From Akkermansia sp. (GTDB lineage Bacteria; Verrucomicrobiota; Verrucomicrobiia; Verrucomicrobiales; Akkermansiaceae), in assembly GCA_017517385.1 (NCBI GenBank), contig JAFWZG010000003.1, positions 1-64,000 on the forward strand: 64,000 nucleotides of DNA, written 5' to 3'. Of the stretch, positions 428-5,230 are shown piece by piece. A program made the translations under genes and the position numbers. Each line of letters opens with the position of its first letter. The first letter of the stretch is position 1. Below the pieces are notes generated by a model. That model searched no databases, was not told where the DNA came from, and saw only the letters and a list, made by a program, of their open reading frames with translations.

Positions 428-3400
428 ATGAAATTACATCTACCTATCACACTGTTAACTGCCGTTCTGGCAGCTGTTATCGCCCTGCCAACCCAAGCCG
501 TAGAGGCTCCGAAAGATTATACTACCACTTACCTGAATAGCCCCGGTACTCTGGAAAACTATTCCACACTTACATCATCTGAGCGCATAGCATTTATACT
601 AGAAGACTCACAGGAAATCACTCCCACCGGTGCAGACTACTGGACTTCATCCACCCCTCTCATCAGCGGGGGGCATGTATTCTTTGGCTCCTACAATTCA
701 GACTCCCCCGTTGCCCTGAGTTTCAAAGACGGATACGGCCCGGCTTTCTACGACCAAAGCGCTTTAACTTTCGATACCTTAAGCAACCTGACGTTCTCGA
801 CGATAACGGGAAACAGTGCTGCCATCCGTGTAAGAAACGGCACTTTAACTATCACCAATGTTAATGATGGCCAAAGTGACACTGTGGACGTACTGTTTAA
901 AGATATAGAGAATACCTACTCCTACTACTCCGAGGGCGGCGCTATCGATGCTTCCACTGTAACCATCAGCAACAATGGCGATGTTTCTTTCTCCAGAAAT
1001 TCTACCACCGCCACCTCCGCCTACTCCTACTCCGAGGGCGGCGCTATCGATGCTTCCACTGTAACCATCAGCGATAATGGCGATGTTTCTTTCTCCGGAA
1101 ACTCGGCCGGCATTGGCGGCGCTATCTATGCTGACGGCGGTGCTGTTACCATCAGCCATAATGGCGATGTTACTTTCTCCGATAACTCAGCCTCCTCCAG
1201 CAAGTACACCTGTGGCGGCGCTATCTATGCTGACGGCGGTGCTGTTACCATCAGCCAGAATGGCGATGTTACCTTCTCCGATAACTCAGCCGCCTCCAGC
1301 GAGTACACCTGTGGCGGCGCTATCTATGCTACGGGCGGTCTTAACATCTGCAATAATGGAGATATAACCTTCACAGAAAACTCCGTATACAGCAACCTTC
1401 CCGAAGTTTCCCTCGCCCCCTCCGGTGGCGCTATCTATGCTACGGGCGGTCTTACCATCAGTTACAATGGAGATGTTTCTTTCTCCGGAAATTCTGCCAC
1501 CCACGAAACCACCGACATGGACGCCTACTCCTCCGGTGGCGCTATCTATGCTACGGGCGGTCTTACCATCAGTTACAATAGAGATGTTACTTTCTTCGGA
1601 AATTCCGCCTCCGACACCGACACCCCCAACCCCATAATAAACCAATCCCATGGCGGTGCTATCTATGCTACGGGCGGTCTTACCATCAGTTACAATAGAG
1701 ATGTTACTTTCTCCGGTAACTCGGTTTCCTCCTGCACCAACTCCCATGGCGGCGCTATCTGTGCTGGTGATGTGATTATCAGCAATAATGCCAATGTTTC
1801 ATTCTCCGGAAACTCTTCTAGCACTATCGGCTCCGGAGAAAGCTTCTTCCGCTCTTATGGCGGTGCTATCTATGCGGACGATGTGACCATCAGCAATAAT
1901 GCCAATGTTTCATTCTCCGGAAACTCCTCCTCCGCCGACGCCTCCTCTCGCGGTGGTGCTATCTATGCGGACGATGTGACCATCAGCAATAATGCCAATG
2001 TTACTTTCTCCGGAAACTCCTCCTCCGCCAACTACTCCTTCGTCAACAACCCCTCTGGCGGTGGTGCTATCTATGCTTCCACTGTGACCATCAGCAATAA
2101 TGGCAATGTTTCTTTCTCAGGTAACTCAGCCTCCTCTGGCGGTGGTGCTATCTATGCTTCCACTGTGACCATCAGCAATAATGGCAATGTTTCTTTCTCA
2201 GGTAACTCATCCTCCTACAACGGCGGCGCTATCTATGCTGACGGCGGCCATACCATCAGCTTGAGCGGAAATAGGAGTCTGACCTTTCAAGACAATACTT
2301 CATCTAGCTTTGGTGGTGCAATATATTCCGATGATGGCAAAATCATTATAAGCGACAATGATTGCGTATCTTTCCGTAGAAATTCCACGGGTGAATCCGG
2401 CGGTGCTGTTGGCGGACATTATAGTGCCTGCACCGAAATAAGTAACAATACATACGTTGAGTTCTGTGAAAATTCGGCCAGTTACGGTGCTGCTCTTTAC
2501 CAACGTGGACTCATCGCCCCCACATACATCAAAGTTATTGAAAATGGCGACGTCATATTTTCTAAAAACACAACATCTATGTATGGCGGTGCTATTTTCT
2601 GCGGTGTTGGAGTTCAGATTATATTGAACGATAATAAGGGCTTGTACTTCAACGACAATACTTCCACATACGGTGGTGCCGTTTATGGTGACGAAGACGA
2701 CATCGTTAATCTTATCGGTAATGGCGAAGTCAGTTTTGTCGGGAACAAGGCTTACAGCTTAGGTGGCGCAATAGGTGGTTATGTAAACAGTACAATCAAC
2801 CTAGCAAATAATGAGAGCGTGATTTTCAGAATGAATAGTGCCCCATCAGGTGGTGCAATTCATACCGAAGGTAACCTGCATATCCAAAATAATGAATCCG
2901 TTCTTTTTGAAAAGAATGTCGAAAGAGCCGGTGACTCTTATCGCTTACGAAGCATCCACGCAGGAGGGGGAGGAGACACTGTCTCTTTATCTGCGTCCGC
3001 TGAAAAAAGCATAGAGTTCCGCGATTCCATTTATATTGCGAACAATACGTCGTTCTCTCTGAATGCAGATTATGTAGATGAAGCAGGGCAAACTCACAAG
3101 CAAACCGGCGATATCATCTTCACCGGTGCTACGACGGAGGCTGACTTACTGGCAGTGAAAGGCAGTGCCGGCACGGCAGAGGAAATCCTCGCCAGCCGCA
3201 CGAGCGAGGTATATGCCATGACGAACCTCTGTGGTGGCCGCCTGAGAATTGAGGATGGCGCCATTTACAAAGGTAATGGTATCACCGTTGCGGAGGGGGC
3301 AAATGCCACACTTCTGCTGAAGGACGGTGAGCTGAGCCATGATGGGTACGATATCACTATCAGCTCCGGCAGCACGCTGAGCGCCGTGGGTGAAAATACA

Positions 3401-5032
3401 ATCACCGCCTCTACTCTGGCCATTCAGGATGGCGGCACGATGCATCTGGCGCTGGATATGTCCCAAGCAGATAGCGCAGCCGTGCTGACCACGACGGGCA
3501 ACCTGAGCATGGGCAACATCTCTTTCGACCTGACCGGTACGGAATACTTGCTGACGGGTGAATACAAGCTGCTCACCCGCACCGAGGGCGTGGATTACGA
3601 CATCTCCGGCTGGACGCTCAATGGGGTGACCTCTGAGCAGCTGCGCTGGGAAAACGGCACGTTGTACTACACCGCCAATCATGATTGGAACCACGGCGTG
3701 ACGGATGATGACGACATCAGCGATTTGGAGGAAATAATCGGCAACCTCGTTATCAACGGCGGCGACATTACGCTTGATGATGTGGTTCAGGCCATTCAGG
3801 ATGCCGTGGATGCCGGCTTTGGTCATGGCCAAGGTCATATCGTTATCAACCGTGGCGGTATTCACATTTCCGGCGCGGGTGATTTAGACGGCCACATCAT
3901 TTTCAATGGCGACCTCAAGGACATCCGTAAGCTCTTCATTGAAAAAGACATCACGAGCATTAAAATTGAGCTCGGTGGCAGCACTGAGGCTGAGAACATT
4001 GTAGCAGTCGGCGAGGAATACACCGTCGAAATCGACGAGCTTTCCGGCGATGGCGGCATGAGCAAGACTGGCCAGGGCGAGATGGTCGTTCATGGCAATG
4101 GTCATAAAGTGGGTGGCACCGTGGCGGTACAAGAAGGCGCCCTCACATTCACAGTGGGCAATCAACCCGCCGGTGGCGAGAATCCGAACAGCACCGAGGT
4201 TCATGAGCTCGTCGTGGGTAACGATGACGACAAAGATGCCCGCGTACAAGTGAACGAAGGCGCACAGGTGGCAGGCGATAAGCTGCATGTAAATGGCAAG
4301 CACTCCGTGGTGACCAACGACGGCAGCATGGAGTTCACCGAGGAAGTAAGAGTGAAAGGCGGTCGCCTGAACAACAATGGCGCCATCAGCCGAGTGACGC
4401 TGGAAGGCGGCAAGGTAACCGGCTCCGGTTCCTTTGACGGCTTGGAAATGCTCGGCGGCGAACTGGTGGTGGGTAACTCCCCCGGCCTGCAGACCTACAC
4501 GGATGACGTGGAGCTCACAGAAGGTATAGTCACATTCTCCTTGGCGGATGCCGCCACGGCCGCCACGGCGGACACCTATGGCTGGAGTGCTGCGGCTTAC
4601 TCCACCATCGACATGAACGGAAACGCCCTGACCATAGGTGCGGATGTTCGCTTTGCGCTGGAGATTGGTGGCGGCGCTCTGGAAGCCCTCACCGCCTCCG
4701 ATGATGCCACGCTCACCTTCAGCCTCAGCCTGATTCAGAACATCGCTACCGAATCCCTGACGCTGAACAGCGAGGCCCTCGCCGAACTCCTGAGCAACAC
4801 CTCCATCATCATCACCTCTGATGCCGAGGGATTAACCGCCGGCACCCTCTTCCTTGCCGGCAGAGATATTACCTCCATGCTGAGCAATGGAGAGTATAGC
4901 TATGAAGGTAATACCCTCGTATTCACAGGCACCGTCACCAACGACGGCTCACTGAACGTTCCCGAGCCCACCACGGCGACGCTGAGCCTTCTGGCACTGG
5001 CGGCTTTGGCATCCCGCCGCCGCCGTCGCTAA
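428..5032 (+). CDS. Pmp-like repeat surface protein with PEP-CTERM-type tail
   Basis: A 1534-residue exported protein. Residues 1-24 form a signal peptide (MKLHLPITLLTAVLAAVIA, cleavage near TQA-VEA). Residues about 165-840 hold some 21 repeats with a GGAI/GGAV motif, a TISNNG-like strand and an F-x-x-N motif (FSGN, FSDN, FSRN). That GGAI plus FxxN pairing is the signature of chlamydial polymorphic membrane proteins, whose passengers form a beta-helix. A less repetitive Gly/Asp-rich, probably beta-helical region follows to about residue 1490. The last 25 residues, NVPEPTTATLSLLALAALAS plus five Arg, are a PEP-CTERM-type sorting signal: Pro-Glu-Pro, hydrophobic helix, basic end. There is no C-terminal autotransporter barrel, so surface delivery would use the sorting signal. 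Role in adhesion or surface coat is inference. A hairpin terminator follows. Confidence 0.85.
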   Translation: MKLHLPITLLTAVLAAVIALPTQAVEAPKDYTTTYLNSPGTLENYSTLTSSERIAFILEDSQEITPTGADYWTSSTPLISGGHVFFGSYNSDSPVALSFKDGYGPAFYDQSALTFDTLSNLTFSTITGNSAAIRVRNGTLTITNVNDGQSDTVDVLFKDIENTYSYYSEGGAIDASTVTISNNGDVSFSRNSTTATSAYSYSEGGAIDASTVTISDNGDVSFSGNSAGIGGAIYADGGAVTISHNGDVTFSDNSASSSKYTCGGAIYADGGAVTISQNGDVTFSDNSAASSEYTCGGAIYATGGLNICNNGDITFTENSVYSNLPEVSLAPSGGAIYATGGLTISYNGDVSFSGNSATHETTDMDAYSSGGAIYATGGLTISYNRDVTFFGNSASDTDTPNPIINQSHGGAIYATGGLTISYNRDVTFSGNSVSSCTNSHGGAICAGDVIISNNANVSFSGNSSSTIGSGESFFRSYGGAIYADDVTISNNANVSFSGNSSSADASSRGGAIYADDVTISNNANVTFSGNSSSANYSFVNNPSGGGAIYASTVTISNNGNVSFSGNSASSGGGAIYASTVTISNNGNVSFSGNSSSYNGGAIYADGGHTISLSGNRSLTFQDNTSSSFGGAIYSDDGKIIISDNDCVSFRRNSTGESGGAVGGHYSACTEISNNTYVEFCENSASYGAALYQRGLIAPTYIKVIENGDVIFSKNTTSMYGGAIFCGVGVQIILNDNKGLYFNDNTSTYGGAVYGDEDDIVNLIGNGEVSFVGNKAYSLGGAIGGYVNSTINLANNESVIFRMNSAPSGGAIHTEGNLHIQNNESVLFEKNVERAGDSYRLRSIHAGGGGDTVSLSASAEKSIEFRDSIYIANNTSFSLNADYVDEAGQTHKQTGDIIFTGATTEADLLAVKGSAGTAEEILASRTSEVYAMTNLCGGRLRIEDGAIYKGNGITVAEGANATLLLKDGELSHDGYDITISSGSTLSAVGENTITASTLAIQDGGTMHLALDMSQADSAAVLTTTGNLSMGNISFDLTGTEYLLTGEYKLLTRTEGVDYDISGWTLNGVTSEQLRWENGTLYYTANHDWNHGVTDDDDISDLEEIIGNLVINGGDITLDDVVQAIQDAVDAGFGHGQGHIVINRGGIHISGAGDLDGHIIFNGDLKDIRKLFIEKDITSIKIELGGSTEAENIVAVGEEYTVEIDELSGDGGMSKTGQGEMVVHGNGHKVGGTVAVQEGALTFTVGNQPAGGENPNSTEVHELVVGNDDDKDARVQVNEGAQVAGDKLHVNGKHSVVTNDGSMEFTEEVRVKGGRLNNNGAISRVTLEGGKVTGSGSFDGLEMLGGELVVGNSPGLQTYTDDVELTEGIVTFSLADAATAATADTYGWSAAAYSTIDMNGNALTIGADVRFALEIGGGALEALTASDDATLTFSLSLIQNIATESLTLNSEALAELLSNTSIIITSDAEGLTAGTLFLAGRDITSMLSNGEYSYEGNTLVFTGTVTNDGSLNVPEPTTATLSLLALAALASRRRRR
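926..2260 (+). repeat. Coding tandem repeats of the Pmp-like protein
   Basis: Degenerate direct repeats of roughly 70-140 bp, each containing ggcggcgctatctatgc or a close variant followed by accatcagcaataatgg. The best local pair is a 102-bp (34-codon) direct repeat whose copies start at 926 and 1028. Period changes between units because the Ser/Thr/Tyr-rich spacer after FxxN differs in length. Such arrays can vary in copy number by slippage or recombination. Confidence 0.8.
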
Positions 5033-5076: not shown

Positions 5077-5110
5077 AAAGAACCGCTACTCTCCGGAGCA
5101 GCGGTTCTTT
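5077..5110 (+). terminator. Terminator after the Pmp-like gene
   Basis: An 11-bp perfect stem (5077-5087 with 5100-5110) and a 12-base loop; the right arm ends in TTCTTT. It lies 45 bp after the stop codon. Confidence 0.7.
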
Positions 5111-5230
5111 GTATCTCTCGCCGAAGGCGGACAAAAGGATATAAGAAAGCTTCTGCATCTATTTCGTAACTGGGGCATTTTATAACTCATCGGAATACTC
5201 TTAGAGAATCAGCAGATTGGAATGCCCCCC

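Follow-up and report, generated by a model that had tools for sequence, protein, structure and literature searches.

A gene in the window, the whole 64,000-nucleotide stretch of Akkermansia sp. DNA analysed here, likely encodes a passenger of the chlamydial polymorphic membrane protein (Pmp) family in which an exosortase sorting signal has taken the place of the C-terminal barrel, with processing and delivery predicted. Somewhat less firmly, comparison with its relatives leads us to propose that one passenger family alternates, within a single genus, between its own barrel and a tag read by an exosortase, with swaps in both directions, and that such passengers are usable without a barrel. Pmp repeats in Akkermansia have already been published; the sorting-tail variant and the swapping of tails appear unreported, and our literature search found no PEP-CTERM protein with a Pmp passenger.

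Architecture of the gene product

The features of the gene and its product are listed in Table 1. Within the genus, the leader motif is common to proteins ending in a PEP-CTERM tail (PEP-type) and to those ending in a barrel (barrel-type). The loops between each FxxN and the next GGA are variable. The stalk is also found in paralogues encoded on contigs C107 and C75 of the same genome, both of which break off within repeats, and partly in one on C61; the window protein ends in VPEPTTATLSLLALAALASRRRRR. The inverted repeat downstream of the stop codon is a possible, weak candidate terminator. Clusters of proteins of about 700 residues that share only residues 1310–1490 of the stalk occur on G001:C20, G438:C53, G040:C27 and G003:C13; those examined, on G438:C53 and G040:C27, have PEP-CTERM ends.

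Table 1 Features of the Pmp-repeat gene and its product (positions in the window)
Feature	Positions	Strand	Basis or remark
Pmp-repeat / PEP-CTERM protein gene	428..5032	+	ATG 428, stop 5032, 1534 aa
N-terminal signal sequence, leader MKLHLP, aa 1-25	428..502	+	sequence
N-terminal region upstream of first repeat, aa 26-169	503..934	+	
Pmp (POMP) repeat region, aa 170-836, about 21-22 rungs GGA[ILV]...FxxN	935..2935	+	
Pmp middle-type region (region A), aa 861-1110	3008..3757	+	chlamydial middle-region HMM
Asp 866 in SIEFRDSIYI, counterpart of rung-0 Asp (chlamydial SIxFYDP[IV])	3023..3025	+	alignment; PMC10715098
Extra C-terminal stalk, aa 1111-1505	3758..4942	+	common to own-genome paralogues
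PEP-CTERM sorting signal, aa 1511-1534: VPEP, hydrophobic helix, Arg5	4958..5029	+	
Inverted repeat GAACCGCT...AGCGGTTC, then TT(T)	5080..5112	+	sequence; absent from consensus-scan list

Repeats of the chlamydial type

The preliminary description, made from the sequence, had counted some 21 units with both GGAI and FxxN, and this count stands. There are 23 GGA[ILVM] sites in the protein (22 inside the repeat region, 18 exactly GGAI) and 23 FxxN sites, and about 21 units contain both GGA and FxxN; 20 units, with a spacing of 14–17, conform to the core pattern published for chlamydiae, GGA[ILV]-x(14,18)-FxxN (PMC11166332). In shuffled sequences of the same composition, GGAI occurs on average 0.17 times (maximum 3) and FxxN 3.9 times (maximum 12). 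Both repeat models, PF02415 (E 1.2e-58, 17 stretches) and TIGR01376 POMP_repeat (E 1.4e-60, 19 stretches), match the protein above cut-off.

PF02415 alone is not specific for Pmps, because less than one third of its members are chlamydial (PMC11166332) and it is present in more than 100 non-chlamydial species, in archaea and in Trichomonas (PMC10715098, PMC11166332); it also matches in our E. coli control. We therefore fetched 29 chlamydial Pmp ORFs and built three HMMs. The repeat-unit HMM, made from 143 units of these ORFs, gives the window protein 365 bits (E 1e-113), more than any of the 29 chlamydial Pmps; its top relative is a barrel-type protein, L111, with 610 bits. Reversed and shuffled decoys had no match to this HMM. 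Among PF02415 proteins of other verrucomicrobial families most had no match either, and the best reached 70 (the full ORF L173) and 30 bits. The independent Pmp HMM of PMC11166332 led to the same result, with an Akkermansia glycaniphila autotransporter reported as its top non-chlamydial match. The search with Pmp repeat models that the preliminary description had proposed thus supports a likeness specific to Pmps and beyond that of generic beta-helices, which further comparisons extend to the rung-0 Asp and, probably, the middle region.

Middle region and rung-0 aspartate

Region A, aligned over 57 sequences, comes after the repeats in nearly all relatives. Of the 29 chlamydial Pmps, the majority have a match to an HMM of this region, and the top matches, like the majority of the weaker ones, lie directly after the repeats; reversed decoys score similarly, with a maximum of 22 bits, elsewhere in the model. 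Region A and the chlamydial Pmps have in common a motif order, S-I-x-F-x-D-[PS]-[IV] ... G-x-I-x-F-S-G ... T-S ... L-x-x-G-x-L, of which F-x-D-[PS] is present in all 29 chlamydial Pmps. The segment SIEFRDSIYI of the window protein aligns with SIxFYDP[IV] in 29 of 29, and the rung-0 Asp is found in every chlamydial Pmp (PMC10715098); the corresponding motif in the window protein is clear from the alignment.

Conversely, the chlamydial middle HMM matches residues 853–980 of the window protein, about the first 120 residues of the region, with E 6.8e-7. The lowest values for each type are 9.6e-16 (PEP-type L101) and 7.4e-24 (barrel-type L097), and the best reversed decoy has 0.037. The curated middle-domain model PF07548 (ChlamPMP_M) gives the window protein 18.5 bits against a cut-off of 25 and stays below cut-off in all family members, so that homology of the middle region is drawn from HMMs built on the fetched chlamydial loci. 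Because of the PF07548 score and the decoy matches of the region-A HMM, we regard the middle domain as probable.

For residues 497–1110, single-sequence AlphaFold gave a strand-rich model of low confidence (pLDDT 54), for which Foldseek found weak matches to beta-helix passengers such as antigen 43 and to tailspikes. The corresponding model of residues 1090–1534 was uninformative. A sequence search of the PDB returned only a meaningless weak L-ring match for the window protein and none for region A.

Sorting tail and exosortase

The C terminus had been described as a PEP motif, a hydrophobic stretch and five arginines in place of an autotransporter barrel, and profile searches bear this out. 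PF07589 scores 21.3 bits (cut-off 20.7) and TIGR02595 16.5, barely above its cut-off of 16; the barrel model PF03797 has no match in the protein. VPEP, hydrophobic stretch and Arg cluster are the elements known from PEP-CTERM/exosortase substrates (Haft et al. 2006, 2012, as cited in PMC4960237). The exosortase that the preliminary description had suggested looking for is present: the genome encodes one, with 156 bits to PF09721 and 115.7 to TIGR02602 (cut-off 105.6), in which the Cys (GGCSG), Arg (NAFR) and His (WHDW) positions are visible and whose gene adjoins an EpsI-like gene. The same genome encodes about 28 PEP-CTERM proteins. The presence of an EpsH, the large number of tails per genome and the co-occurrence of the two are likewise as in known PEP-CTERM/exosortase systems; the EpsH of A. 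muciniphila is Amuc_1470 (PMC3048395).

An exosortase is present in 45 of 59 genomes of the genus. Thirteen of the 14 genomes lacking one have zero PEP-CTERM tails, the exception being G012, which is 71% complete. These counts show that, in terms of gene content, PEP tails depend on the presence of an exosortase within the genus. Pmp repeats follow the same division (31 of 45 exosortase-positive versus 2 of 14 negative genomes; p 0.0005, kinship not corrected for). The two negative genomes with repeats are the incomplete G012 and G015, the only near-complete one, in which the repeat protein (L114) is barrel-ended.

We propose that the passenger forms a long right-handed beta-helix of GGA[ILV]/FxxN rungs, seeded by the rung-0 Asp and the middle region. 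After presumed Sec passage directed by the signal sequence, the C-terminal hydrophobic segment and Arg cluster would keep the protein anchored in the inner membrane; the exosortase would then cleave at VPEP and transfer the protein to the envelope or surface of the cell. The exosortase step follows the known PEP-CTERM/exosortase model and is supported here by gene co-occurrence. The folded passenger would be a rod with protruding variable loops, which, by analogy with chlamydial Pmps, would serve adhesion or cell contact; the window protein is thus probably an adhesin or contact protein.

Two sequence patterns accompany these proteins in the window's own genome. Searched as a DNA pattern, the leader MK[LPFI][HRKQS][LIF]P has 18 matches, against 2 for the reversed pattern. 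It lies at 428–445 in the window and also on C33, C128, C61, C47, C131, C109, C67, C74 and others. Its carriers include both large PEP-CTERM proteins and barrel proteins, and the about 15 small PEP-CTERM proteins (<365 aa) all lack it. The motif is a possible sign of an export route that large beta-helix proteins share. Among the PEP-CTERM tails (L036–L063), most large proteins end in ...LLALAALAARRRR and most small ones in ...LLALAGLAARRRR, a one-residue difference that tracks protein class.

Two tail types within one genus

Among 55 distinct 3'-complete repeat proteins from loci of the genus, 41 have a PEP-CTERM tail and 8 a barrel. Scores with the chlamydial Pmp barrel HMM are 143–191 bits for barrel-type proteins such as L111, L157, L114, L097, L116, L155, L091 and L092 and 95–105 bits for L115 and L095, compared with 11–69 bits for barrels that unrelated proteins of the window's own genome carry. 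PF03797 is above cut-off in L097, L114, L157, L091 and L092. By these profile matches the genus contains complete Pmps with barrels, sometimes alongside PEP-type proteins in one genome, and the division first suggested, with barrels in Chlamydia and PEP-CTERM tails in Verrucomicrobia, breaks down.

In a tree of the middle region, which has few columns and long branches, six barrel-type rows group with the chlamydial rows, and nearly all PEP-type rows fall into a single large clade (95/89) that also contains three barrel rows. A single barrel clade is rejected (p-AU 0.0004). Barrel-type L150 clusters with PEP-type L087 and L108 (support 100/99), to which it is 40–45% identical across repeats and middle; L108 and L150 are in one genome, G030. 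Beyond its middle region L150 has a barrel that shares 35% identity with the one in L090. With the chlamydial Pmp barrel HMM these two barrels and that of L162 score 13–25 bits and are thus not of the chlamydial Pmp type; for this reason these three look like a second swap, from a sorting tail to a common verrucomicrobial barrel. Tails were swapped more than once in the genus, apparently in both directions.

Several other gene variants were seen among these loci. In L086, L096, L102, L107 and L108 the repeats plus middle block are duplicated within single proteins of 1500–3600 residues. The barrel-type Pmp gene at L091:974–5719 (minus strand) has one in-frame stop after six repeat units, which may reflect a broken gene, a sequencing error or readthrough.

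Origin of the family and alternative readings

Of 234 Chlamydiota genomes, 20 have a PF02415 match; all 20 are 1.0–1.3 Mb in size and are taken to be Chlamydiaceae. None of 27 sampled environmental chlamydiae has such a match, and Rhabdochlamydia has almost none of these repeat motifs (PMC6490308). Among 388 sampled Verrucomicrobiota genomes PF02415 occurs in 29 (E <= 1e-4), six of this genus and 23 outside it. None of 20 PF02415 loci fetched from other verrucomicrobial families has a PEP-CTERM end, and none has a clear Pmp middle region. Repeat proteins of other verrucomicrobial families at L173, L175, L176, L180 and L184 have neither PEP-CTERM tail nor barrel but an N-terminal motif like F-x-LEDRVLFEA[AG]A (L175: YFLEERIYFDGAAA), a candidate further export class. 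The survey indicates that complete Pmps are common to Chlamydiaceae and one verrucomicrobial genus and are missing from most other chlamydiae, which bears on the origin of the main chlamydial adhesin family.

Since PF02415 is patchy in Chlamydiota and present in few other Verrucomicrobiota, the distribution agrees better with lateral transfer, or with very wide loss of an old gene, than with plain inheritance. The chances seem evenly balanced that whole Pmp genes were transferred laterally between the ancestors of Chlamydiaceae and those of the genus, and that within the genus a sorting tail later replaced the barrel. The complete architecture is seen in Chlamydiaceae-sized genomes and in this genus; it was absent from the 27 further chlamydial genomes and from those PF02415 proteins that were sampled in other Verrucomicrobiota. 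In the tree, barrel-type members adjoin chlamydial ones. However, the branch joining them is modest (94/64, in a tree with few columns), wide loss of an old gene yields the same pattern, and transfer could have run in either direction. Such a transfer concerns origin and is compatible with our preferred reading of the gene as a Pmp passenger with an exosortase tail.

We think it improbable that the PEP-tailed copies are periplasmic or inner-membrane leftovers, a silent archive that recombines with barrel-type genes. The genes are repeat-rich and modular and exchange tails between paralogues, and in A. muciniphila intracellular fractions contain more of the PEP-CTERM proteins than outer-membrane fractions do (PMC4960237). 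Yet complete copies with a PEP tail far outnumber those with a barrel, their long ORFs are intact, leader and tail are conserved, and the mass spectrometry of the same study detected 9 of 23 PEP-CTERM proteins, three of them in the outer-membrane fraction.

A shade more doubtful still is the proposal of the preliminary description, an old passenger of the PVC superphylum inherited vertically and delivered by a barrel in Chlamydiae and by a PEP-CTERM tail in Verrucomicrobia. Both groups do belong to the superphylum and the homology of the passenger is real, but both delivery types occur in one genus, even in the single genome G030, and the distribution is very patchy. Vertical ancestry is therefore not supported, and its two-phyla form is largely refuted. 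Least credible of all, and rejected on the middle-region and barrel HMM results, is convergence of a generic beta-helix whose GGAI/FxxN rungs arose independently of Chlamydia: repeats alone can converge and PF02415 is spread widely, as noted above, but other verrucomicrobial families reach only 70 and 30 bits against 365 with the unit HMM, homology extends into the middle region, and the barrels of barrel-type relatives outscore other barrels of the window's own genome.

Comparison with known systems and implications

With the chlamydial Pmps (PF02415, PF07548, PF03797; TIGR01376) the window protein shares the repeat unit and its spacing, the rung-0 Asp motif, probably the start of the middle region, and membership of a family of several paralogues; it differs in having a PEP-CTERM tail in place of the C-terminal barrel and an extra stalk of 400 residues between middle region and tail. 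The Pmp-like autotransporter A0A1C7PBX1 of A. glycaniphila, probably of the same genus, has chlamydial-type repeats as well, but is predicted to be a classical autotransporter with a barrel, and the available excerpt of PMC11166332 describes no sorting tail. Trichomonas Pmp proteins (PMC6701047) also combine a GGA/FxxN passenger with another C-terminal anchor in place of the barrel; theirs, however, is a eukaryotic single transmembrane helix with a cytoplasmic tail, and they have neither middle region nor exosortase.

If the two delivery devices do alternate, a Pmp passenger can be produced and put to use in the absence of a barrel, and the exosortase pathway would be for large beta-helix adhesins a counterpart of type V secretion. 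The genus would then offer a natural experiment, in a free-living gut-type bacterium, in which the same passenger occurs with and without a barrel and in exosortase-positive and -negative genomes. Two questions would become open to test: does a Pmp passenger depend on its barrel and on C-to-N folding in order to fold, and do bacterial exosortases bring large beta-helix proteins to the surface of the cell?

Finally, the window's own genome encodes, on C52 (L075:2767–5079, minus strand), a 771-residue autotransporter with 69 bits to the chlamydial Pmp barrel HMM, a weak middle-region match (7e-4) and one sub-threshold repeat, which is possibly a degenerate full Pmp.
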